A DNA stretch of 20,970 nt from a virus. Positions 1 to 13,523 of the stretch are shown here, in pieces. Numbering within the stretch: the stretch's first letter is position 1; every line of letters starts with the position of its first letter. The notes beneath the pieces are model-generated. The model worked only from the letters and a program-made list of their open reading frames with translations. It ran no database searches and had not been told where the DNA came from. The stretch lies in IMG/VR virus record IMGVR_UViG_3300049914_000023, positions 1-20,970 of that record, one strand, 5' to 3'. The position numbers and the translations under genes were made by a program.

Positions 1-238
1 CTGCCGCGAGGTCGGGTCGGAAGGTTAGGATGCCGTCGGCGTGGTCGGTGACTTTGCGCAAGTCCGGCCCCAGGGATGGAAAGTACACCCATCCGGCCAT
101 GAAGGTGTTGTCCTCAAACAGGTGCAACACGTCCTCGTCGTGGATGGCGTTGACAGCCGGTGCGTCCACAATGCCGTAGGCGACGATGTTCAGGTAATCG
201 CCGACCTCACGCCGTAGTTCCTGTAGGGTCTTTGCCAT
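1..238 (-). CDS. Partial small virion-type protein, cut by the window edge
   Basis: An open frame starts with ATG at 238 and runs without a stop to base 1, giving 79 codons. It begins MAKTLQELRREVGDYLN. A good ribosome binding site (GAGGAG, 7 nt before the ATG) lies inside the end of the upstream glycosyltransferase gene, which it overlaps by 32 bases. The LRREVGDYLN-type amphipathic helix start resembles small head-tail connector (adaptor) proteins of phages, and a neck gene would fit downstream of a capsid gene, but this is inference from a short fragment. The rest of the visible chain is acidic and ordinary. The C-terminus is missing because of the window edge, not because the gene is broken. 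Confidence 0.75.
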   Translation of the reverse strand, partial: MAKTLQELRREVGDYLNIVAYGIVDAPAVNAIHDEDVLHLFEDNTFMAGWVYFPSLGPDLRKVTDHADGILTFRPDLAA

Positions 239-1283
239 GCGCCTTCTCCTCGAGGAGCCTCACGTAGTTCTCCTCCCACAAGGGGGCGATCTTGTCCCAG
301 GTATAACTTGTGGCGAACGTTAGGCCCTTCTGCATGAATGGTTGCGCCGTCTTGGGGTCGAGCAGTGACCGGATGGCGTGCGCCCACGCGTCGTACTCGA
401 TCGGCAGCGGCATGAGCGGGGCAACGTCACCGTACAGGCTGGGCAGGCAGTCCGCCTCCGAGATCAGCGGCACGCACCCACAGGCCATGCTCTCCAAGAT
501 CGTCGTGCAGAAGGTCTCGGTGGGCACCACTGGATCGCAGGGATAGATCAGCAGGTCAGCCTGGCGATACCAGTTCGCCAACTCATCCTGCCGTGTGGGG
601 CCATGATACACGACGTAGGGCTTCTTCATGCCCTCAAAGATGGCCCGCGCCCTGAGTGCCATTTCATCGTGCGCCCACCAGCACGATCTCATCCAGCCAT
701 GCACATTGTAGAAGACATGGAACTCAAAACATAGATCGCTAAGCCTGTCCAGGATTGGAAAGACGTGATGCAGTCCGCGATCGGGCGAGGAGGTGTGCAG
801 AAATATCGCCTTACTGCGGGGTTCCCTTTCCGTGGCCGGATAGAAGATCGCCGGGTCTTGGCCGTTGGGGATGATGTAGTGGGCTTCGATGAGACCCTGG
901 GCAGCGAGTTGTTCAGCCTGCCACCCTGAGTGACATTGCACGGCGTCAATGTGCGGCAGTTTCAGGTTCCAACGTGGTATCCCGACCTGACAGTCTACCA
1001 CGAACACCTTCGTGGGCCAGTCTATCACCACCTGCATACTGGAACAGATCGTGATGTCGAAGGGTCCGAAGACCTCCGCCGCATAACGTAGTCGCTCGCA
1101 GAAGCGCACCCCTTGCCAGGTATGATCCTTGGTGTTGCCAACCCAGTAGACCTCATGGCCGTTCTTGGCGGCCCACTCCGCCTGTTTCACGAGGGCAGTG
1201 GTTGTGCCGGTCATCAGTTTCATATCGTCTGGCACCACCTTGCCGTGTGGGTCGTCGTGCGCCATCAAGATACACAGTTTCAT
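207..1283 (-). CDS. GT4-family glycosyltransferase
   Basis: This 358-residue protein is a GT-B fold glycosyltransferase of the GT4 type, expected to move a sugar from a nucleotide-sugar donor to an acceptor in the cytoplasm. Seen: an N-terminal Rossmann-like start (MKLCILMAHDDPHGK), a linker with IIPNGQDPAIFYP near residues 137-149 matching the family's PNG.D...F motif, a TSSPDRGL motif at about 164-171, and the family's EX7E pair at E256 and E264 (ETFCTTILE) followed by SMACGCVPLIS. Length is normal for GT4. The ATG at 1283 overlaps the preceding stop as ATGA, with GGAGGAG just upstream. It closes the sugar-transfer cassette. The SSPDRGL motif is shared with the C-terminal half of the 793-residue fusion upstream, so the two are probably paralogous. 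The acceptor is unknown. Confidence 0.88.
   Translation of the reverse strand: MKLCILMAHDDPHGKVVPDDMKLMTGTTTALVKQAEWAAKNGHEVYWVGNTKDHTWQGVRFCERLRYAAEVFGPFDITICSSMQVVIDWPTKVFVVDCQVGIPRWNLKLPHIDAVQCHSGWQAEQLAAQGLIEAHYIIPNGQDPAIFYPATEREPRSKAIFLHTSSPDRGLHHVFPILDRLSDLCFEFHVFYNVHGWMRSCWWAHDEMALRARAIFEGMKKPYVVYHGPTRQDELANWYRQADLLIYPCDPVVPTETFCTTILESMACGCVPLISEADCLPSLYGDVAPLMPLPIEYDAWAHAIRSLLDPKTAQPFMQKGLTFATSYTWDKIAPLWEENYVRLLEEKAHGKDPTGTTA
705..739 (-). promoter_or_regulatory. Putative promoter C, inside the GT4 gene
   Basis: The minus strand reads GCGATCTAT (739-731), 20 nt, then TACAAT (710-705), the best -10 match of the three related sites. Twelve bases, TTAGCGATCTAT, are identical to site A. 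Unlike A and B it lies within coding sequence, about 470 nt before the next start codon (238), so it would drive the downstream genes past the window edge. It may also be a chance match in a coding region, so the confidence is lower. Confidence 0.35.
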
Positions 1284-1564
1284 GTCTCCTCCAGTGGCAA
1301 CCTACCAGGCAGTTGATCAGCGTCCAGCCGCTGCACGGACACCAGCCAACAATCGTTTATCTTGTCATAGACATACACGGCAGAGACAGGAAACTCTCGC
1401 ACGGGGCAAGCCTTCACGAGGAGTTCCCAGTCCTCCGTCCTAGCCATCACGACACTATCTCGCGGCCCCTCCCACCTCCACCCTGTAGGACGACCGAAAA
1501 CACCCATGATCGGATACATCATGGCCTTTCCGTCTTCGGACGAGAACACGGGTATCGTTATCAC
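1280..1564 (-). CDS. Small hypothetical protein in the glycosylation cassette
   Basis: I do not recognise this 94-residue protein. The start chosen is the GTG at 1564, which overlaps the methyltransferase stop codon as GTGA and has GGAG 8 nt upstream; the frame stays open further 5' but only inside the methyltransferase gene. The sequence begins VITIPVFSSEDGKAMM, has a Trp/Arg-rich middle (GRPTGWRWEGPRD) and ends acidic. No signal peptide, membrane segment or catalytic motif is visible. Its stop overlaps the next start (ATGA), so it is translationally coupled to genes on both sides and probably has a role linked to the methyltransferase and the GT4. Confidence 0.7.
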   Translation of the reverse strand: MITIPVFSSEDGKAMMYPIMGVFGRPTGWRWEGPRDSVVMARTEDWELLVKACPVREFPVSAVYVYDKINDCWLVSVQRLDADQLPGRLPLEET

Positions 1565-2157
1565 TTTGCACACTCCATGCCGATACACTTCGGCTTGATG
1601 CGTCCCTGCCAGGGGGCAGTCGCTCGCAAGGTGTCCCATTCTTGCGCGTTGCGCCGGTAGGCGACGATAAACCACCCGCACGGAAAGTCGGTCATGCCGT
1701 AGTCCGCTTCAATCCAGATTGCCACTTCCCAGTTCGCCGCTTCCAGCCACCGCCACAGGTTGTGATCGTCTACCCACAGGCGGTGCGACCCCGGGGCCAT
1801 CAGGTTGCACTCCCAGATGGCCTCCCTGCATATCCCGTCGTCACGGGGCACGGTGAGCACGAGCTTCTTGGCGATGCGGTGCGCTTCCTTGAGACACTTG
1901 ATCGCCTCGTCCTCGGTCTCAAAGTGCTCCAGGATGTCGCCCAGGATGATCGTGTCGAAGGAGTTGTCGGCCACGGGGATACTGCGTGCGTCCGCCTGCA
2001 AGAACGGCTCCGGCCTTGGTCCATCTACGAAGGGACCCGCCAACTGGTCAACGTGCAGTGCCTTGATGCCGCCAGCGTTACCGGAGCAGCCGACGTTGAT
2101 CACGCGCCCCGTTGCGTGCTGCCGCTGGAAGTGGAAGCGATCACCTAATGGTCTCAT
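1561..2157 (-). CDS. SAM-dependent class I methyltransferase
   Basis: This 198-residue protein has the layout of a small class I (Rossmann-fold) SAM methyltransferase of the Methyltransf_11 type. Motif I is VINVGCSGNAGG (about residues 19-30). An acidic and hydrophobic stretch with SIPVADNSFDTIILGDILEHF (about 59-79) is the typical post-I/motif II region, followed by LVLTVPRD as the next strand. The ATG at 2157 overlaps the stop of the upstream GT2 as ATGA, with GGGAG before it. Lying between glycosyltransferases, it may methylate a sugar or a glycosylated acceptor, but the substrate cannot be read from the sequence. A protein or nucleic-acid substrate is not excluded; no DNA-methylase catalytic motif such as DPPY or NPPY is visible. 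Confidence 0.85.
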   Translation of the reverse strand: MRPLGDRFHFQRQHATGRVINVGCSGNAGGIKALHVDQLAGPFVDGPRPEPFLQADARSIPVADNSFDTIILGDILEHFETEDEAIKCLKEAHRIAKKLVLTVPRDDGICREAIWECNLMAPGSHRLWVDDHNLWRWLEAANWEVAIWIEADYGMTDFPCGWFIVAYRRNAQEWDTLRATAPWQGRIKPKCIGMECAK

Positions 2158-2846
2158 AGTGCTCCCAGCGGGTGTCCGCTTTTCATTTGGAACAGCATGG
2201 CCCCGAAGGGCTGCATCGTTGACTCGGGGTTCTGGGGATGGTTCCAGTGGATGCAGCGTATGTCGCTCTCAAACCAGAACTTGATCCCAGCCCGGTGCAT
2301 CCGTAACGCCCACTCCATGCCACCGTAGCCCTCGAATTGATTGAATTCCTCATCGAAGGGCAGAAACTTCTCCCGCCACAGGGCAACGAATTGGCGGTCG
2401 GCAGCCATGGGGAAGATGAAACCCGTCTCGTAGTTGGGTGCGCTGCCCGCCGAGCCGGGGCCATACTTGCCGGGGTCGTTGGTAGCGAGGAATGTCAGTA
2501 AGACGACATTCTTGTCCAGTTCCTGCATCTTGCTACGCACGCGCTCCAGGAACGACGGCGGAAACTCCATGTCCTGGTTCGTGATGCAGAGGATGTCCCC
2601 CTTCGCTGCCGCCGCCAGTCTGTTGTAGACCGTCCAGAGACGCGACCGGCTGTGGGGTTCGGGCAACTGCATGTAGTCGCTCACCCGCATACCGATGCGC
2701 TCGCGCACGTCGTCGGGTACCGACTTGCCATCCTCGCACACGATGATCTCGTCGCCGTCCTTGATCTGTGGCACAAGCGAGTCCAGGCAGCGGTCCATCC
2801 AGGTGACACGCTTATAGAACGACATCCCTATGCTGATCGTCGGCAT
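2154..2846 (-). CDS. GT2-family (GT-A fold) glycosyltransferase
   Basis: This 230-residue protein begins MPTISIGMSFYKRVTWMD, the nucleotide-sugar-binding start of GT2 enzymes, followed by GDEIIVCEDGK. The metal-binding DXD position is replaced by a NQDM stretch (CITNQDMEFP), as in several galactosyltransferase-like GT2 proteins. The C-terminal part holds the acceptor-side motif EGYGGMEWALRMHRAG followed by IHWNHP. The ATG at 2846 was chosen because the protein family starts there; AAGGAGG lies 11 nt upstream, inside the last codons of the Cys-rich gene. Further upstream in-frame starts fall inside that gene. It overlaps the methyltransferase by 4 bases. It probably adds a hexose to the same product as its neighbours; donor and acceptor are unknown. 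Confidence 0.87.
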   Translation of the reverse strand: MPTISIGMSFYKRVTWMDRCLDSLVPQIKDGDEIIVCEDGKSVPDDVRERIGMRVSDYMQLPEPHSRSRLWTVYNRLAAAAKGDILCITNQDMEFPPSFLERVRSKMQELDKNVVLLTFLATNDPGKYGPGSAGSAPNYETGFIFPMAADRQFVALWREKFLPFDEEFNQFEGYGGMEWALRMHRAGIKFWFESDIRCIHWNHPQNPESTMQPFGAMLFQMKSGHPLGAL

Positions 2847-2853
2847 CAGGTCA

Positions 2854-3201
2854 CTACCTCCTTGGTCTTGGGCAGCCAGTCCCCTTGAACGACACGCACC
2901 ACTCAAGTGGACCAACAGACTTCCACCGATAGTCACAGACCAGGTGGCCCTTCTCATCAAGGCAACCCAGCGCAGTATCTACAACATGGCAGTGTGCGCA
3001 CCCACCGCACCACTGATCCTGCCCTCCGCCGCAGAGATCCCTGTCCGCAGGGCCGGAATCTTTTATCATCAATGCGCTGACCGCATTGGCAAGGTGATTC
3101 AGGATCACGGACACCTTTTCCCAATCACTACAGGGCTGACCCTTCTTGCGTTGCTCCACACCAAACTCGTCAATGTACTCGTGCAACTGCCTCAGATTCA
3201 C
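2854..3201 (-). CDS. Cys-rich small protein, putative zinc binding
   Basis: This 115-residue protein is not recognised. It starts with GTG at 3201, overlapping the stop of the fusion glycosyltransferase as GTGA, with AGGAGG 7 nt upstream. The N-terminal 50 residues look helical (NLRQLHEYIDEFGVEQRKKG). The C-terminal half carries about eight cysteines, including C..(7)..CGGCAHCH and later LGCLDEKGHLVCDYRW and WCVSFKGTGCP, so one or two zinc sites are likely. The final codons also contain the ribosome binding site for the next GT2 gene. It may be a partner of the sugar-transfer enzymes, which rests only on its place between them. Confidence 0.75.
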   Translation of the reverse strand: MNLRQLHEYIDEFGVEQRKKGQPCSDWEKVSVILNHLANAVSALMIKDSGPADRDLCGGGQDQWCGGCAHCHVVDTALGCLDEKGHLVCDYRWKSVGPLEWCVSFKGTGCPRPRR

Positions 3202-5579
3202 GCTAGTACCTCCTTGATCTTGGGTAGCCAGTCCTCTTGCACGACCCGCTCCCAGGTCTGCCTGTCAACGTTCCCCTGTTGTGTGGCCGCGTAGTCGAAC
3301 TCCTCCGGGTGCTCCCACCAGTAACTCATCATGCCGATGAAGCGTTGCTGCGCCGGCGCATTCGTGGCAGACATGGGGATGGTCACACCCCCGCCGTGTA
3401 GCGTCTCAGGGATGGCCGCCACGTCGGAGGCGATGATGTTCATTCCCGCCGCCTGCCCTTCCAGGCCAGTGATCCACGAGACCTCAGTGAACGTCGTCGG
3501 GTAGATGAGCCAGGTCGCCTTGCGCTGCGCCAGGGCCAACTCCCGCTGGCCGACGCGCCCGTGCATGATGACGTGCTTCTCGTTCTTCTTGATGACCTCG
3601 TTGAGTGACCCCAAGAACGATGACGCCCCCAGTTCACCCATGCGCGCCACGGCCTCCAGGTTCTGCGTCCCGTAGTAGACGTGGATGGCGATGTCCTTGC
3701 TCAGTTCCTTAAAGTAGGGCAGCATGGAGATCAGGATGGGCAGGCCACGATCAGGAGACGATGACCAGATGATGGCATTCTTGTCCCGCGTCACCCGCTT
3801 CCCCGTATAGCGCCCCAGGTCTATGCCGTTGCGCAGGACGCCCATCTTGTCTTTGATCAGTGGGTACGTCTGCGCAAGGTACTGGCTGTGCCACTCGGAC
3901 ACGCCGCATACCAGGTCAATCTTCTCCGCCACCTCCGGGTTGAACAGGGCCTGCCGGTAGTTGAGGTCGTGCAGCCAGGCGATGATCTTCTGTGCCTTCC
4001 AGGGCAGTGTCGCTGCCCCTGGCTGCCGCCATAGCACGAGGATGTCCCGCCGCGAGTCCTGCGGCACGAGGTTCCAGTCCCAGTATTCCACACCGTCGTG
4101 GATGCCAGCGTAGCGGCCGGGGTTGCCCAGCACGCGTACCTGGATGCCGACTTGGGCGAGCAGTCGTGCGACGTGGATCACCGCCGTCTCACTGCCGCCG
4201 ATGCCGCCGGCGTCTATGCTGGGTGGCCCCCACGCTTCGCCGACCCCCACGTTGCCGCAGAAGATGTCCAGGCGCGGCTGCGTCCCCTTATCCTTCAGGA
4301 GAGTAGCACGCCCCAGGACCTCCTGGCGGTAACTGCGGAACAGGCGCACGTCCTGCGGCATCTGCTTGTCAAAGGCCAGGATGTCCTTGTCACCAACGTT
4401 GTCGGCCAGCAGGATAGCCCCCTTCGCCATCTCTTTCTGCTTGATGCCCCTCTCGTAGGTCTCCTTGGCCTCCAAGAGCGGCTTGGAATCGGGGAACCAT
4501 TTCAGGCCCGCCTCGACATCTTTCAGTGCGCCTTCCACATCGCCCAGCTCAGACCGCGCAATGTGGGAGACCAGATAGGCGTTGTAATCGTAGTCGCGGG
4601 GGTTCATAAAGATCACGGGGTCGCAACTCTCCATCTCCAAACCCTGCTCGTGCCAGAACAACGCCTTTTTCCACTCTCGGATCTGCACGTAGCCCTCGGC
4701 CATCCCGAAGTAGGGGTCGGCCCAGGTCGGCTCAAGCTCGATGGCACAGAAGTCCATGTCCAGCGACATCTCGACCAGTTGGCGGGCCTCGTCCTTCTGG
4801 CCGCGCGCCTCGCGCTCCTTCGCCATCTGTCTGAGACAGTCGGCCCGGAACTCCGCAGAGCGCCACATCTCCTGTGGCCACACCCCACTGTCCAGGTACT
4901 TCATAAACCAGGAGGCTGCCTTCTGCCATTGCCCCATCGCGTAGTGCTGGCAACCCATGTAGAAGTAGGTGCGGTGATTCTCTGGCTGCTCCATGAGTTG
5001 CAGTTGCAAGAGGTGGAGGTTACGCTGCGCCGTGTCCTTCAGTGAGAGGCCAGGATAGTGCCGCCAGACGATATCGTCGCAGTTCAGGAAGGGGACGTTT
5101 GCATTCGGGGCCAGGACCTCGTGGACTCTATTTTCCCAACGCCAGCGGGCACCCGTCCAGCGGAGGTCCACGACACGCTCACGGTCAATGATGACGATGG
5201 GATTGCCGTTCTTGTCCGTCTGGTAGATGTAGCCGCAGTTCAGCCAGGCCCACTCATCCCGCATCTTCTCGCAGTATTCCGGCAACTTCTCGAAGCCCTC
5301 GATCAGGTCGTCGGCGTCCATCCAGACGAAGAAGCGGGTCTTGACCACTGCCAGGTTCGCGTTGCGGGCACGCGAGAAGTCATCGTCCCAGTGGTACTGC
5401 GTCACCGTCCAGCCGAAGGACTTGGCAACCCCCACCGTGTCATCTTCGGAGCCGGTATCTGTGATGACGACTTCATCCACCACGTCCAGGGGGTGCATGG
5501 CCTCCTGGATACGTTTCAGGTTCTTACTCTCGTTCTTGACGATGAGGCCGAGGGTCAGGCCATCGGCTACTTTCGACAC
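3198..5579 (-). CDS. Fusion glycosyltransferase: GT2, TPR-like helices, GT4
   Basis: This 793-residue protein joins two different glycosyltransferase folds. Residues about 1-190 are GT2: LGLIVKNESKNLKR, then VITDTGSEDDTV, then the metal-binding FVWMDADD at 85-91. Residues about 190-385 are helical repeats resembling TPR (for example YFYMGCQHYAMGQWQKA). Residues about 425-793 are GT4: GGIGGSETAVIHVARLL for donor-side binding, LRNGIDLGRY, SSSPDRGL and the EX7E pair at E699 and E707 (EVSWITGLE). GTG at 5579 was chosen because GGAGGTGAT precedes it. The start overlaps the zinc-ribbon gene by 56 bases; the end overlaps the Cys-rich gene by 4. Two active sites in one chain suggest two successive sugar additions, with the helical part binding a protein acceptor; this role is inferred. 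Confidence 0.88.
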   Translation of the reverse strand: MSKVADGLTLGLIVKNESKNLKRIQEAMHPLDVVDEVVITDTGSEDDTVGVAKSFGWTVTQYHWDDDFSRARNANLAVVKTRFFVWMDADDLIEGFEKLPEYCEKMRDEWAWLNCGYIYQTDKNGNPIVIIDRERVVDLRWTGARWRWENRVHEVLAPNANVPFLNCDDIVWRHYPGLSLKDTAQRNLHLLQLQLMEQPENHRTYFYMGCQHYAMGQWQKAASWFMKYLDSGVWPQEMWRSAEFRADCLRQMAKEREARGQKDEARQLVEMSLDMDFCAIELEPTWADPYFGMAEGYVQIREWKKALFWHEQGLEMESCDPVIFMNPRDYDYNAYLVSHIARSELGDVEGALKDVEAGLKWFPDSKPLLEAKETYERGIKQKEMAKGAILLADNVGDKDILAFDKQMPQDVRLFRSYRQEVLGRATLLKDKGTQPRLDIFCGNVGVGEAWGPPSIDAGGIGGSETAVIHVARLLAQVGIQVRVLGNPGRYAGIHDGVEYWDWNLVPQDSRRDILVLWRQPGAATLPWKAQKIIAWLHDLNYRQALFNPEVAEKIDLVCGVSEWHSQYLAQTYPLIKDKMGVLRNGIDLGRYTGKRVTRDKNAIIWSSSPDRGLPILISMLPYFKELSKDIAIHVYYGTQNLEAVARMGELGASSFLGSLNEVIKKNEKHVIMHGRVGQRELALAQRKATWLIYPTTFTEVSWITGLEGQAAGMNIIASDVAAIPETLHGGGVTIPMSATNAPAQQRFIGMMSYWWEHPEEFDYAATQQGNVDRQTWERVVQEDWLPKIKEVLA

Positions 5580-6216: not shown

Positions 6217-6948
6217 CTAGGTGATGTAACCGCTCTGTCCGCTGTAGGCGTGCTCGATGCGCACGATGGCGCTCTGGTTGAGGATGACCTGCCCATGCAG
6301 GGCCTTCCACCCAGCGTACCAGCGCTGCCCCAACGGGTCGGACTTCGAGGCTTCGAGGCCGACGAAGTAGGTCTTGACGGAGCCTGCATCGTGACCGATC
6401 ACGCCGTAGGCCCCTTCGCCGAGAAGTAGGCCGATGTACACGTCAGCCTGGCTCATGCCTGCCGTCGGGTACACCTTGGCGTTGGTGCTGTCGTAGATGC
6501 GCACACCCACCACATCCAGGGTCGGTACAACCTGGCCTTCCTCCCACGATGGCACACTGTCCTTCGTGGTCGTCTGGCCGAAGCCGTACAGCATGGCCGT
6601 CTGGAGGTTCGAGTCGTGCATCAGGTCATAGACCGCGTTCGGGTGGTCAATGAGGACGTAACGACTCTTGCCGCCAAAGGTCAGTGGCTTGACGTTGGCC
6701 GCCCTCATCGTGCGCACGGCCTTCTGCAAGGCCGTCACGCTGAGGTTCTGGCCCGATCCAACCGACATCCGGTTGGAAAGGTTCGTCGAAAGAATCTCGT
6801 ACTGCACAGTCGTGGTGCTGCCGACCAGGTAGTCCCGGGTGATCTGGTCAATCGAGTCCCCTGCCGACTCGCCGAGTAGAGAATGAACCTCGGTCACGAC
6901 AGGATCAATGGACATCAGATCAACCAGGTCCGAACTGTATACCCACTG
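6217..6948 (-). CDS. Major capsid protein, N4-gp56 family, exon 2
   Basis: This is the larger part (243 residues) of the head-shell protein. It starts QWVYSSDLVDLMSIDPVV, exactly where the N4-gp56 family continues after its NQYG motif, and includes LLGESAGDSIDQITRDYLV and later FVGLEASKSDPLGQRWYAGWK and HGQVILNQSAIVRIEHA near the end, the family's usual C-terminal pattern. The reading frame is open upstream into the intron but has no start with a binding site; the in-frame ATG at 6915 has no Shine-Dalgarno sequence. Joined to exon 1 it gives 332 residues, normal for the family. The exon border at 6948 is inferred from protein continuity and from the intron ending in G, so it could be off by a codon. 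Confidence 0.88.
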   Translation of the reverse strand, partial: QWVYSSDLVDLMSIDPVVTEVHSLLGESAGDSIDQITRDYLVGSTTTVQYEILSTNLSNRMSVGSGQNLSVTALQKAVRTMRAANVKPLTFGGKSRYVLIDHPNAVYDLMHDSNLQTAMLYGFGQTTTKDSVPSWEEGQVVPTLDVVGVRIYDSTNAKVYPTAGMSQADVYIGLLLGEGAYGVIGHDAGSVKTYFVGLEASKSDPLGQRWYAGWKALHGQVILNQSAIVRIEHAYSGQSGYIT

Positions 6949-7596
6949 CGCTTTGTTATCTTGTGCTTTCGCACAAGGCCAGACTATCGCTTCTCCCCTA
7001 GGGGAGTCGGGTCGCTTAGTCGTTGCGGGTGGTTAAGAGCCTTCATGCTCAGATAGTAAGCGTCCAGGCTGTCGAGAACCTCTTGCGACCGTGGACGGTT
7101 TTGCCCATACTGGCCTCCGCCCCACGTGTGCCCCAGTTGCCTGACGTGTTCCTGGAACTTCAAAGCAAGTTCCGCCTGACGTTTCTTCGTAATCATGTGC
7201 GGATACACTTCCTGTAGGAAGGCGTAGGCCCTCTTAGCAGTCAGCACCCAGCGCATCATGCAGCACGTCTTGTCGCCATAACGGGTGATGTACCCAGGAA
7301 CCAGTTCATGGAGCCTCACGATCGCCTCTGCTGGCTCTTTCATGCCAATCTGTATCCTCAACTGATAGCCGGGTGTCTTTTGTCTTCCAGCCCGAACGAT
7401 ACACCATATCTTCAAGATGGTGACAGTTCCCTCGCCATCCATGAGGCCAGCAAAGTATGCCTGTTGCTCACTATTCATTTTTCACCTTCCCTCTGGTGGC
7501 CCTCATCGCTTCTGGTCAGAATACCAGGCTGTGGGCTTTCCATGTTCTTCAGACCCGAACCGGCCATCGGCATCCTAGCAAAGCCAGGAGCCTCCT
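6949..7596 (-). mobile_element. Group I intron with homing endonuclease, within the capsid gene
   Basis: This 648-nt insert divides the capsid gene between GGT and CAG codons without shifting the frame. In the transcript the group I core pairings can be read. P3 is UCGGGUC (7552-7558) with GACCCGA (7007-7013), 7 bp. P7 is GACUA (7017-7021) with UAGUC (6982-6986). P8 is CUCCCCUAGGGGAG (6993-7006), followed by J8/7 AAGCGA. P9 is a perfect 7-bp stem with a GAAA loop (6960-6977). Tentative P4 is GCCC/GGGC (7533-7536, 7499-7502) and tentative P5 is CUGGU/ACCAG (7512-7527). The 5' exon ends in U and the intron ends in G, as the family requires. P1 may be exon CGGU with intron GCCG. The exact ends are inferred; the presence of the intron is well supported. 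Confidence 0.85.
6984..7478 (-). CDS. LAGLIDADG homing endonuclease inside the intron
   Basis: This 164-residue protein carries one LAGLIDADG motif near its start (AYFAGLMDGEGTV, about residues 7-19, with the catalytic acid at D14 or E16). Single-motif members of this family act as homodimers that cut an intron-less copy of the target gene, so that repair copies the intron in. The C-terminal SLDAYYLSMKALN is the usual closing helix. Start: ATG at 7478 with AAGGTGA close upstream. The last 13 or so codons coincide with ribozyme elements P7, P3 and P8, and the TAG stop is part of the P7 3' strand. The expected target is the capsid gene at the NQYG codons of relatives that lack the intron. Confidence 0.9.
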   Translation of the reverse strand: MNSEQQAYFAGLMDGEGTVTILKIWCIVRAGRQKTPGYQLRIQIGMKEPAEAIVRLHELVPGYITRYGDKTCCMMRWVLTAKRAYAFLQEVYPHMITKKRQAELALKFQEHVRQLGHTWGGGQYGQNRPRSQEVLDSLDAYYLSMKALNHPQRLSDPTPLGEKR

Positions 7597-7863
7597 ACCG
7601 TATTGGTTCAGCGTGGCGTTGAGAGAACTGATGGAGAAGGCCGCCTCGGTTCCTGCCGTGCCTTCGGTCAGGGCCGTGGTGGTGGCGGTGATCTTCTCGA
7701 ATTTCCGGAACAAAATACTTCTGCCCCAGTTGCTCGGCACGCTTCGCTTCGTGCCGAACTGGGTGTGGAGCAATCGCGGAAGCAGCCGGTCGAGCAGCAC
7801 CTTGTCGTAGAAGCTGCGCAACTCGGTTGAAAACCCGCTTGATGTAGTTCCATGCATTGCCAC
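7597..7863 (-). CDS. Major capsid protein, N4-gp56 family, exon 1
   Basis: This exon encodes the first 89 residues of the head-shell protein. The family's hallmarks are clear: FSTELRSFYDKVLLDRLLPRLL, a FGTKRSVP segment, SILFRKFEKITATTTALTEGT, and NQYG at the end of the exon. The start is GTG at 7863, with AAGGAGG 6 nt upstream; the ATG at 7857 is less well spaced. Reading on into the intron gives an unrelated tail of 15 residues and a stop at 7549, so the gene makes a full product only after splicing. The binding site lies within a hairpin (see 7868-7896). The gene follows the scaffold-like gene after 43 nt. Confidence 0.9.
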
Positions 7864-8702: not shown

Positions 8703-11700
8703 CTAGCCAACATGCCACGCACCGGCGCGCGTTGCCTTGGGTGCTGGTCGCGCCCGCCAGACACGCGAGCCGTAGAACGCCGATGGTCGCCTCGGCCCAC
8801 GGGAGCGCCTGCTGTACTCTCCCGGCGTCGCCTTGGCGTACGGCACGTTGTACGTCTTGCCCCCGTAACTGACACCCGTGCCACCTGCGGTCGCGCCACC
8901 GTAGTATGTCTCCAAGAGCGGGTGCGCGGCCCAGTAAGCCCGTGCCGCCGCCGTGCCCTGGGCCTCCTTGACCTTGTAGTACTCAGCAATCTCCTTCTTG
9001 GCCTGCGTCCGCTGCGCCTGCTCCTCCTTGGGAACCTCTGGGTACTTCTCCTGCAACTGATCCATGAGGGCGGAAAGGCCCTTCTGCTCGGTGTTGGTGA
9101 GTTTGCCCCAGTCGCCGTCCACGTCGTAGAAGCGACTGATGAGCGCCTTTTCCTTCTCGTTCAGGCTGCGTGTGTAGCCAGGTGGCAGCCTCTCGATGAG
9201 GACGCCCCACGTGCGCGACTTCTCGTACCAGGCCAGTTTCTCCTCTTTGGTCTCGTCGTAGTACGTGCTCGACAGACCGAAGAACCAGGGGTACTTCTCC
9301 TTGAAGGCGTTGAGACGGCTGGTGTAGGTCGTCTTGTCGGTCGTCTGGAGCGGCCTGATCTCGTTGTAGTATTCGTTGCGGGCCGTCGCCAACTCCTGCT
9401 CGTCAACGTCCCGCAGTCTGGCCGTGCCGCCAATCAGGAGCGATGACAGTGCAGGGACAGCCGCCGAGACAGCCTGCTTCTCCTGGGCAGCCTTCCACAG
9501 TGCGCCGTCCTGGAGTTGCAGGGCCTTGGTCGCCTCGTCTTTGGTGATGACCTGGCCGGTCTCCGGGTTGATCTCCTTGTTCTCGAACATAGTAACCAGG
9601 GTCTTGCCGACCCGACTGGGATCATACTTCTCGTCGGGCGTCAGGCCGAAGCCCTTGCCCTCGCGCTCTGCCTTCATCTCCTCCGGCATGAGCATGGTCG
9701 TGGTGCGCTGGAAGACCGGCGACGCGGCCTCGCGCAGTGGCCGCTCCACGTTGATGCCCTCCGGCGGGATGATCCCCTTGAGGACACCCCAGTGCGCCAA
9801 CAGTGCCGTTGCCGCCTTGAAGGGGCGTGTCCATGCCGACTGATACGAGACCCAGTCGTTGGGGTCGCCCAACGCTCCCGTCGCCGCCGTGCCGATGATC
9901 CAGTGGGCAAACAGGTTCGGCCCCCAGCCCTGCAAGCCCTGCACGGCTCCACCCACGGGCGTTGTCTTGCGTTCGGCGTTGTAGAAGCTGGCCGTGAGCG
10001 GCTGATACAGCGGGTTGAACAGCGACTCCAGGTTGACGAAGAGCGGGTTGTCATCCCAGAAGTTCAGGGGGATCTGATTGCGCCACTGTACCGGCAGGTC
10101 TTTGTGGAGATCGGCCTGGGCTTCCTTGAGCCGCATGTACCCCATTGCCAGTGCCGGATACCTGGCTGCCCTCTCTGCCCAGCGTGCGATGCTGCGGGTG
10201 TACCAGAAGTGGAACGGGTAGATATATGCGAGAATTGTGTCCAGATTATTGCGTTCTGCGTAATTATGCAACGCAAAATCACGCATTAACACGCCGTACT
10301 TGGCAGCCACACCCTTCGCCGCGTTCATGGCCGGTAGCACATCGTGGTAGACCCACTGGCGGGCAGCGACGACACCGGCCGCGTTGGGCGAGTCTACGGT
10401 CGCCTCCCAGTGCTCAGTCGTCCAGCGCAGGAAGTCATCAAACACGGCATTGACCCGATCCCACGACTCCGCTGCCGCCGACGCTTGCATCTGGGCAGGC
10501 CCCTCAAGATGCGGCACTTGCGCGGCCACAGCAGGGGCAGGTGCGGCAATAGGCGGGGCAATAGGCGCGGCAATAGGGCCTTCCGCAGCAACAACGGGCG
10601 CAGGGGCAACGGCCGGGGCAGGCGCTGCCACTTTGCGGGCCTGGGCGACGATGGCGTCCTGGGCGCCCGTCGCCCCCATCATGTTGATCTCGTCGTCCGT
10701 GTAGCCCCATTCCCGGAGCAGCGTACGCGCCTTCACCGTGATCTCGCCACCAGGTGGCAAGGATCGGATGCGACTCACGGCGTCCTCGTAGTTCGTCTTG
10801 GTCGTCAGGCGCACGTCGTCCCACAGTTTGGCCGCGCGGGGGAAGTACCAGTCCCACGCCTCAGCCCGTTCCTGCCCCGCCTTCGTCAACGGGGCCAACG
10901 TCTCCTCGCCTGGGATCGCCTCTCCTGGCTTGCCCAAGAGCCAGTGGTTTTGCGCACGCGCCAGGTTCTTGAGTCGTTGTGTCTCCTCCCACGACTGCTG
11001 AGCGATCTTGAACGCTTCATCGTTGCGGCTACGGGCCAGGGCCTGGCTCACCGCAGCCATGCCCGCCGACTCGGTTTCCTCATACGCCTTGACGGCGTTA
11101 TCAATGACCTTCGCCACCTTGAGGGCCTGGGCCTGCTTCATGCCACCCTCAATGGCATCGGCCATCACCTGACTGGCATCCTCCCGAATGGCCCCCGTCT
11201 CCACGGTCGTTATCGCGGCGCGCTGTTCCATGCGCAACGACTCGGTGGCCCTACGAAACTGCTTCTGCGCCGTTGCCGCATCGCCGCTGAGCGACTTATT
11301 GAGCAAGCCCTGCAACTCATCGGCCATGCCGACTTCCCGCGCACGCGTGGCGATGTCGTCGGGCAAGACAGCACGCTCGTAGCGCACACCGGCCATGCCG
11401 ACTTCCCGCGCACGCGTGGCGATGTCGTCGGGCAAGACAGCACGCTCGTAGCGCACACCGGCCACGCCGGAGAGTTTCTGCATGGCCGCGTCCAGGTCAC
11501 CGCGTGAGAGGGACCCGTCCATCAGCGAGTCCAGGACACCAGCGTTCTGCGGCCCCAATGCTGTGCGCACCGCCTCCGGCATGGCGGGCCGGATGAGGCG
11601 TTGTACCCAGAGGCGGTTCCACACCCGCTCGGCGGCGTGCTTGTAGATGCGCATGGACGCCGCCCGCTCGATGGCCTGGCCCAGTCGCAAGAACGGCTCG

Positions 11701-13523
11701 CCACGCCGGAACGTCTTCAGCACGCCGCCCTCGAAGACGACATCCTTGAGTGGTGTCTTGACCAGGTACTCCGCACCGCCACCCACCTCGCCTGCGCCGA
11801 TGCCCGCAAAGGCACGGGGTACGGGGCCGAACTTATCTATCCACTTAGCCACCCCCTGCATGTTCTCCCAGGTGAACGTACCGTCCACCAGCTGCGGCAT
11901 GGTGTTGCCCATGAAGTTGCGCACGTTGTAGCCTGCGCCAAACAAGCCCATGTAGAGGTAGCGGGCTGACCAGTCCTTGATGGCCGCGTTCATGCGCTGG
12001 ATGGGGTTCATGGGGGAGTCGGGGAAGATGAGTTTGGCGGCGTCGTTGGTGAGACGCGCCATGCGCCCGCCCCACAGTGAAGCGGCGGCCCCCGCTTGCA
12101 CCTCGTTCAGAGGAACGTCGTCAGCCAGGTTGTACGACTTACGCACGGCAGCGATGGCTTCCTGGGCGATGCGTTCGGCCTTCGCCCAATCGGGAGCCTC
12201 GGTGTAACTGAGGGGATTGACACCCTTGGGGGCCAGGGCCGCCCGCCACAGAATCTGAGCACGCTTGCCCACCGCACTCTCACCGTAGACGGCCAGGTCG
12301 GGGATCTTGGCCTTGCCCTCCACCCAGGCCAGCACGCGAGCGACGCGTGCTGCTACGTCGTTGCCGCCGGTCGTTGAGATCAGGGCCGCCGTCTCGCCAG
12401 CATCTTCGACGAGGCGGGACCGCATGGCCGCATTGGTGGGGCGAAAGAGGTTGAACATCGAGCCGAGTTTCTCACCCACGGTCGGCGCAGCCAGACCGTG
12501 CTCTGTCATGTAACCCTTCGCGCCCGTCATGGCTGCCTTGCCCGCGTTCTGCATGGCGGCGGTGATCTCCTCCAGGCTGCGGGGGTCGGGGGCAAAGTGC
12601 AGTCGCGCCGCTTTGAGCATGGTGGTGGCATCCCAATCGTTGAGAGCGGACGGCAGTTTCACAGCAGACGTCAGGCGCTCGGCGAACCCTGGCTGCTCAG
12701 CGACGACTTTGCGCACCGCACTCAGCCACTTAGCGGAGTCCACCGCTCCACTTGCCGTCGCCTCAGCGATGGCCGTGTCAGTCAGTTTCAGTTCGTTGGC
12801 GATCTTGAGTTTGCCAAACACGGCCCCCGGCACCCACGTTGACGGGTCAGTCAATGCCCCCATAACCAACTGCACGGGGAAGCGTTGCCGGTAGAAGACT
12901 TCACGGGCTGCCTCATACGCCTTACCACCAAAGAGAGCATCAATACCCATAGCGGGGGTCCAATCGAGGAGTTCTCCTGCCACTGGTATAGCGATGCCCT
13001 CGGAGATGGCCCCCACGATGTTCAGGATACTTTCGCCACTGCGCACGACACCTCCCAGTATCGGCACGTCGCGCAGTGTACCACCCATGTACTCCTCTGG
13101 GGTCTCGGTCGGCTGCCATGCTTGCTGCGCGGCCTCACCCAAGAAGTGTGTCAGTGGCAACTCACCTGCCGCTGGCGGGGTGAACCGAGTATGTTCCCAG
13201 GCCACTTCCTGCGGCGTCAGTTCTCGCCGCTTACGGTCCTCGGAGGTGAACCAGCGCGTCAGTCCCTGCGTCAACTCCTGGCTGCCAGAATACCAGCCGG
13301 TCGGTGCCCAGTCGGTCGGTGCATATGGGGAAGCCGGGGCGGCACTCCGCTCCATGTAGTCGTCGGTGGCCGCGGCCTTCGCGTAGCCGAGGTCGTCCTG
13401 CTGCTGCTGTGACCAGCGGCTGTTCCAGAAGTCGCGCGCGCCCGTCGCAAGGTTAGCCTGCCACGCCTTGCGTTCGTCGTTGAGGCGCGTCCACCAGTCA
13501 GGCGAGCTCCAGGGGTCGGGCAT
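8703..13523 (-). CDS. Giant (1606 aa) probable internal virion protein
   Basis: This is the largest gene in the window and lies between the portal region and the scaffold. Start: ATG at 13523 with GGAGGTAGCG directly upstream. The N-terminus is Trp-rich (WSSPDWWTRLNDERKAW). A Gly/Ile-rich hydrophobic stretch follows at about 150-215. A segment with LFGAGYNVRNFMGN at about 525-540 and another with FHFWYTRSIARWAERA at about 1101-1116 resemble conserved patches in large phage polyvalent and internal virion proteins. An Ala/Pro linker lies at about 964-1006. The rest is mostly helical. A 23-residue unit (AGVRYERAVLPDDIATRARE...) is present twice in tandem at about 689-734. No catalytic motif was found. 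It is probably packaged in the head and ejected with or before the DNA; a tail tape-measure role is less likely given its place before the capsid gene. Confidence 0.75.
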   Translation of the reverse strand: MPDPWSSPDWWTRLNDERKAWQANLATGARDFWNSRWSQQQQDDLGYAKAAATDDYMERSAAPASPYAPTDWAPTGWYSGSQELTQGLTRWFTSEDRKRRELTPQEVAWEHTRFTPPAAGELPLTHFLGEAAQQAWQPTETPEEYMGGTLRDVPILGGVVRSGESILNIVGAISEGIAIPVAGELLDWTPAMGIDALFGGKAYEAAREVFYRQRFPVQLVMGALTDPSTWVPGAVFGKLKIANELKLTDTAIAEATASGAVDSAKWLSAVRKVVAEQPGFAERLTSAVKLPSALNDWDATTMLKAARLHFAPDPRSLEEITAAMQNAGKAAMTGAKGYMTEHGLAAPTVGEKLGSMFNLFRPTNAAMRSRLVEDAGETAALISTTGGNDVAARVARVLAWVEGKAKIPDLAVYGESAVGKRAQILWRAALAPKGVNPLSYTEAPDWAKAERIAQEAIAAVRKSYNLADDVPLNEVQAGAAASLWGGRMARLTNDAAKLIFPDSPMNPIQRMNAAIKDWSARYLYMGLFGAGYNVRNFMGNTMPQLVDGTFTWENMQGVAKWIDKFGPVPRAFAGIGAGEVGGGAEYLVKTPLKDVVFEGGVLKTFRRGEPFLRLGQAIERAASMRIYKHAAERVWNRLWVQRLIRPAMPEAVRTALGPQNAGVLDSLMDGSLSRGDLDAAMQKLSGVAGVRYERAVLPDDIATRAREVGMAGVRYERAVLPDDIATRAREVGMADELQGLLNKSLSGDAATAQKQFRRATESLRMEQRAAITTVETGAIREDASQVMADAIEGGMKQAQALKVAKVIDNAVKAYEETESAGMAAVSQALARSRNDEAFKIAQQSWEETQRLKNLARAQNHWLLGKPGEAIPGEETLAPLTKAGQERAEAWDWYFPRAAKLWDDVRLTTKTNYEDAVSRIRSLPPGGEITVKARTLLREWGYTDDEINMMGATGAQDAIVAQARKVAAPAPAVAPAPVVAAEGPIAAPIAPPIAAPAPAVAAQVPHLEGPAQMQASAAAESWDRVNAVFDDFLRWTTEHWEATVDSPNAAGVVAARQWVYHDVLPAMNAAKGVAAKYGVLMRDFALHNYAERNNLDTILAYIYPFHFWYTRSIARWAERAARYPALAMGYMRLKEAQADLHKDLPVQWRNQIPLNFWDDNPLFVNLESLFNPLYQPLTASFYNAERKTTPVGGAVQGLQGWGPNLFAHWIIGTAATGALGDPNDWVSYQSAWTRPFKAATALLAHWGVLKGIIPPEGINVERPLREAASPVFQRTTTMLMPEEMKAEREGKGFGLTPDEKYDPSRVGKTLVTMFENKEINPETGQVITKDEATKALQLQDGALWKAAQEKQAVSAAVPALSSLLIGGTARLRDVDEQELATARNEYYNEIRPLQTTDKTTYTSRLNAFKEKYPWFFGLSSTYYDETKEEKLAWYEKSRTWGVLIERLPPGYTRSLNEKEKALISRFYDVDGDWGKLTNTEQKGLSALMDQLQEKYPEVPKEEQAQRTQAKKEIAEYYKVKEAQGTAAARAYWAAHPLLETYYGGATAGGTGVSYGGKTYNVPYAKATPGEYSRRSRGPRRPSAFYGSRVWRARPAPKATRAGAWHVG
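10249..10276. repeat. Inverted repeat in an AT-rich patch
   Basis: TTGCGTT and AACGCAA form a 7-bp inverted repeat with a 14-nt centre. It sits inside an AT-rich patch (27 G+C of 70 at 10221-10290) in an otherwise GC-rich gene, within the codons for residues about 1083-1092 of the 1606-residue protein. It could be chance or a protein-binding site. Confidence 0.4.
10545..10577. repeat. 12-bp microrepeat, three units, Ala/Pro linker
   Basis: GGCAATAGG occurs at 10545, 10557 and 10569, with a 12-bp period. On the coding (minus) strand it gives the IAAPIAPPIAAP part of a flexible Ala/Pro linker in the 1606-residue protein. The period is a multiple of three, so copy-number change would alter linker length without breaking the frame. 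Confidence 0.7.
11321..11458. repeat. Perfect 69-bp tandem duplication in the giant gene
   Basis: Bases 11321-11389 and 11390-11458 are identical over 69 bases. The unit is 23 codons, so the frame is kept, and it repeats a helical segment of the 1606-residue protein. The absence of any difference between the copies points to a very recent duplication, or to an assembly error. Confidence 0.95.

Follow-up and report, generated by a model that had tools for sequence, protein, structure and literature searches.

Group I introns in the capsid genes of phages are already known. In the mycobacteriophage LittleE the in vivo splicing of such an intron has been proven by RT-PCR and protein sequencing (PMC3706429), and that paper also cites a capsid-gene group I intron in the lactococcal phage Tuc2009. 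They are also found in the crAss-like phages of the Delta and Zeta groups, with up to four intervening segments per gene (PMC7886860), and huge phages rich in introns are known (PMC12363816). Endonuclease insertions in phage methylases have been described in which an intron is not detectable (PMC11855218). A search of the open-access literature turned up no description of introns that interrupt capsid genes of the N4-gp56 type, and a hotspot in this type of capsid gene is the newer point of the present analysis.

The DNA considered here, which we refer to as the window, is a stretch of 20,970 nucleotides comprising positions 1 to 20,970 of the virus record IMGVR_UViG_3300049914_000023. A preliminary description had proposed that it holds an N4-gp56 capsid gene joined at GGT-CAG across a group I intron with a LAGLIDADG endonuclease, and the present analysis supports it on each of these structural points. 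We are confident that a mobile group I intron splits the capsid gene after codon 89, splices to give a 332-residue capsid protein and encodes a homing endonuclease of the I-CreI kind. The evidence comes from the integrity of the exons, the elements of the intron core, a covarying family, relatives at the same site and the predicted endonuclease fold, from which we infer splicing, cleavage and homing.

The interrupted capsid gene

Joining the exons at GGT-CAG, where exon 1 ends in ..AATACGGT, gives a stop-free frame of 332 amino acids. The joined product matches the NCBIfam model for N4-gp56 major capsid proteins (TIGR04387) at 4.6e-49, with a score of 167.5 bits against a cutoff of 60 and coverage of model positions 1–323 of 324. 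Exon 1 by itself covers positions 1–85 and exon 2 covers 85–323, and therefore no part of the capsid has been lost or doubled. The PHROG 1357 assignment (major head protein; exon 1 corresponds to positions 20–115 of phrog_1357) is consistent with this result. A search of the joined protein against Pfam, suggested in the preliminary description, left PF13252 under its cutoff. A lack of uninterrupted relatives, in combination with the lack of a group I hit, had been named as grounds for abandoning the intron; 12 such relatives were found among phages and viral contigs, each in a single frame and aligned across NQYG-QWV with no gap. The junction ranks seventh in conservation among 328 five-residue windows of the capsid, which bears out the claim that a conserved stretch was invaded. 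The product is presumably the most abundant virion protein of virus IMGVR_UViG_3300049914_000023.

Features assigned to the capsid locus of the window (positions of the window; all on the minus strand)
Feature	Positions	Strand	Details	Evidence or comparison
Capsid exon 1	7597..7863	(-)	GTG start, 89 codons, last residues NQYG, last base U	
Group I intron	6949..7596	(-)	648 nt, 5' end AGGAGG.., last base G	Joined capsid score, core elements, same-site relatives
Internal guide GCCG (P1)	7564..7571	(-)	Pairs with exon CGGU, U.G at splice site	
P3 5' strand UCGGGUC, then J3/4 UGA	7552..7558	(-)		Shuffle test, covariation in relatives
J3/4-P4 segment UGAAGAACAUGG	7540..7551	(-)		Family consensus UGAUUGACUUGG
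LAGLIDADG homing endonuclease, I-CreI/I-MsoI type (predicted)	6984..7478	(-)	164 aa; crosses 3' core, stops in P7	
P7 5' strand GACUA	7017..7021	(-)		
P3 3' strand GACCCGA	7007..7013	(-)		
P8 hairpin CUCCCCUAGGGGAG (CUCCC..GGGAG)	6993..7006	(-)		Covaries in relatives
J8/7 AAGCGA	6987..6992	(-)	Immediately before P7 3' strand	
P7 3' strand UAGUC	6982..6986	(-)	Its UAG doubles as endonuclease stop codon	
P9 hairpin CUUGUGC-GAAA-GCACAAG	6960..6977	(-)	7 bp, GAAA loop	
Intron 3' end AUAACAAAGCG, terminal G	6949..6959	(-)		Same-site relatives: UAACA..G
Capsid exon 2	6217..6948	(-)	243 codons and stop	TIGR04387 positions 85–323

Several further features of the surroundings were observed. Downstream of the capsid module lie several glycosyltransferase-like genes (window 207–5579), one of which has a 793-aa product weakly similar to SunS-type S-glycosyltransferases. 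A 1606-aa ORF (8703–13523) contains a 69-bp unit repeated 2.2 times with 98% identity (11321–11469), duplicating about 23 residues (GVRYERAVLPDDIATRAREVGMA). In the Stenotrophomonas phage StenR_269 (L012, positions 1–194), a gene annotated as an intron homing endonuclease immediately precedes a capsid gene that belongs to this family and has no interruption.

The group I core and its detection

The proposed P3, P7, P8 and P9 pairings can all be written out in the insert, which has the 3' end ..AAAGCG. Of all the U/G junctions tried, the chosen one, with an exon ending in U and an insert ending in G, gave the joined capsid its highest score. Another GCCG lies a few bases further along and could serve as the guide instead; it is this second copy that pairs in the thermodynamic fold. 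The 7-bp P3 helix followed by UGA arose in 0.06% of shuffles. No copy of the P7/J8-7 pattern appeared in 100 shuffles, compared with one in the window itself. Of the P4-P6 domain, the J3/4 UGA and the P4/P5 landmarks GGAAAGCC..GGGC are present, with a weak P4 (~3 bp) and a short P6 that was assigned by eye. The features that place the insert among the group I introns are the in-frame restoration of the gene, the exon U facing a guide G together with the terminal G, and a P3, P7 and P8 with conserved P7/J8-7. Inteins and LAGLIDADG-bearing group II introns exist, and either could in principle account for such an insert; we give this reading almost no weight, since the capsid frame stops soon after the junction (ORF 7549–7863 terminates within the insert), the 5' end does not carry the GUGYG of group II introns and the insert contains the P3, P7 and P8 of group I.

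The Rfam group I model (RF00028), the Infernal check put forward in the preliminary description, did not find the intron: the window has no match at the gathering threshold and none at E ≤ 10. This silence is not disqualifying, because the experimentally proven phage introns of LittleE and Baka fall short of the cutoff of 50 bits, at 30.7 and 28.6 respectively (the T4 nrdD intron scores 105), and the related introns that were tested are missed as well. At the gathering cutoff, 16 sources of such relatives gave one hit, to a different intron in one of them (L133), and a search of nine sources at E ≤ 5 produced no hit. The endonuclease frame, which parts the halves of the core by ~430 nt, probably defeats the model further. 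A match to RF00028 is in any case a detection test and not the biochemical definition of a group I intron. BLASTN of the intron against phages returned chance matches only, and a narrower DNA pattern (GACTAAGCGACC..GATAGTC) had no match, the J8/7-P7 pattern being used instead.

It could be argued from the weakly paired P4 and the silence of Rfam, and from the fact that splicing is deduced here from sequence, that the insertion is degenerate or does not splice, leaving either a broken capsid gene or a contig that represents a decaying copy. We regard this as very improbable, as both capsid exons are full length with neither frameshift nor stop. The guide and the bases at the splice sites are likewise undamaged, no stop interrupts the endonuclease frame, and the invariant core bases are retained. 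For a functional intron, the capsid pre-mRNA would fold as a P3-P8/P4-P6 ribozyme in which exon 1 CGGU pairs with the internal guide GCCG. A guanosine bound at P7 would attack after the U that ends exon 1, and the freed exon would then attack after the intron's terminal G, restoring the 332-residue capsid through a ligated RNA with the junction AAUACGGU-CAGUGGG.

The endonuclease in the insert

The ORF within the insert has a weak Pfam match and a match to phrog_5046 at 3.5e-18. The label that PHROG gives to this family, HNH endonuclease, was rejected on the basis of profile and fold searches, both of which indicate LAGLIDADG. A profile of 22 homologues, of which one is the window's protein and 21 come from viral contigs, finds I-MsoI at 2.3e-26 and I-CreI at ~1e-13, and a Foldseek search with the predicted structure (pLDDT 87) finds crystal structures of I-CreI at 3.7e-9 with a TM score of ~0.7, so the preliminary assignment to LAGLIDADG holds. 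The predicted fold has the helix with a catalytic acidic residue and the alpha-beta-beta-alpha-beta-beta-alpha arrangement of I-CreI-type enzymes; the motif reads FAGLMDGEG, with AG..DGEG invariant. I-CreI and I-MsoI originate from introns in algal chloroplast rRNA genes. They share with the window's protein a single-motif LAGLIDADG fold and a similar length, and differ from it in sequence (~15–20% identity). The protein is a single-motif LAGLIDADG enzyme, presumably dimeric, that may be active and cleave the intron-less site. In co-infecting relatives such a homodimer would cleave QYG sites that have no intron, and the intron would be copied in. A pseudo-palindrome, ATAC-N9-GTAT, spans the capsid junction and is a possible endonuclease site. 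The reading frame crosses P7, P3 and P8, so that any one RNA should be able either to have this frame translated or to splice, but not both, a competition between ribosome and core folding that the layout suggests.

Used as a single query against the viral contigs, the endonuclease gave no confirmed relative, and sense-strand homologues of it do occur in related introns. The closest phage homologues with an annotation are either free-standing genes next to thyX or lie within methylases; among the actinophage relatives (L014–L019), the genes are free-standing next to thyX or within DNA methylase genes. This distribution, along with the phage methylase insertions lacking a detectable intron (PMC11855218), is what would be expected if a free-standing endonuclease gene had entered the capsid gene with no intron, the capsid then being made as two polypeptides or by ribosomal bypassing. 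Such an arrangement is extremely unlikely here, given that the insert contains a group I core and that the same core is found in introns of ~200–230 nt which are too short to hold an endonuclease (L051, L060, L078, L085, L089 and L133).

An intron family and its relation to known systems

Relatives were collected from IMG/VR with a pattern made up solely of P7 and J8/7 bases (ACGACTA..GAAGCGATAGTCTG), which is blind to gene context, and at least 119 stretches from uncultivated phages were recovered. Agreement among them in P7/J8-7 is by construction, because the 21 fixed bases of the search came from the window's own P7/J8-7; this effect does not extend to the guide, to P3, P8 and P9 or to the genes in which the introns lie. 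The arms of P3 covary, with 193 of 196 cells paired compared with 136 ± 5 (maximum 154) when the arms are reshuffled, and at one P8 pair 24 of the 49 sequences carry changes on both sides, while 2 have the pair broken. The J3/4-P4 motif of the table's consensus is common to the relatives. Introns at precisely the QYG site of the window (..CARTACGGT, with the insertion after the last base) are present in five contigs, namely L048 and its near-copy L071, L068, L082 and L099, and all have a GCCG(TA) guide and a 3' end of UAACA..G as in the window. Recovery of a family by its core RNA alone, the covariation of P3 and these same-site introns together argue strongly that the insert was rightly called a group I intron.

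The same-site introns thus resemble the window's in capsid site, guide, core and 3' end. An endonuclease homologous to that of the window is encoded on the sense strand in L068, L082 and L099 and on the opposite strand in L048; the endonucleases of QYG-site relatives are ~26–31% identical to it, and P4/P5 of the window diverge from the main consensus. Most QYG-site introns carry the LAGLIDADG gene on the sense strand, overlapping the core. Capsid introns at several sites have a homologous LAGLIDADG gene in antisense (L044, L048, L049, L056, L105, L125 and L033), and one contig (L073, 3516–4113) contains a pair of GC-rich cores from this family that lie only 556 nt apart.

Among the matches listed, an N4-gp56 capsid match lies in or beside the interrupted gene at ~63 of ~117 loci examined, and both capsid exons are present in 43 loci besides the window. 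On the capsid profile, which has 302 positions, the insertions among these matches fall at ~20 sites; for at least 15 of them the two flanks agree on the position to within one residue. The three stretches of the capsid with the highest conservation, EGT, QYG and DPLxQR, are among the sites used. Some capsid genes apparently have two or more introns (e.g. L026, L067, L070, L108, L129 and L133). Many of the remaining introns in the window-type set (L024–L142, viral contigs) are in tape-measure, portal and other capsid genes. In a control set of introns with canonical J8/7 (GAAGATATAGTC), 6 of 122 touch an N4-gp56 capsid gene among the matches listed. After similar loci were clustered, the counts among the matches listed were 40 of 69 clusters for window-type introns and 5 of 60 for canonical ones (Fisher p ~1e-9, assuming an independence of clusters that is only approximately true); the IMG/VR contigs are a non-random sample, which bears on the capsid-gene share.

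We think it probable that the intron of the window is a member of a separate family of group I introns, undetected by Rfam and marked by J8/7 AAGCGA and the J3/4-P4 motif UGAUUGACUUGG, with N4-gp56 capsid genes and, more widely, virion genes as its main habitat, inserted at ~20 sites, several per gene in some cases, with or without an endonuclease and in both orientations. If this is true, many uncultivated phages have capsid genes that appear in pieces in assemblies and are overlooked by gene-calling programs, and introns favour late virion genes as a niche. The family is unseen by a standard Rfam search and splits a gene used for phage recognition and classification. It offers many natural insertions at differing sites in one virion protein, and makes it testable why homing introns favour late, highly expressed virion genes.

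Among described systems, LittleE resembles the window in having a group I intron with a LAGLIDADG gene in the major capsid gene, an exon ending in U and an intron ending in G, and a score under the Rfam gathering score (30.7 bits for LittleE). It differs in its HK97-type capsid and its insertion site, in J8/7 (AAGUUA in LittleE, AAGCGA in the window) and in the endonuclease, which in LittleE is on the opposite strand outside the core, whereas that of the window is on the sense strand inside it. The crAss-like Delta and Zeta phages likewise have group I introns in the capsid gene; they are a different phage group, and the likeness noted is in gene location.
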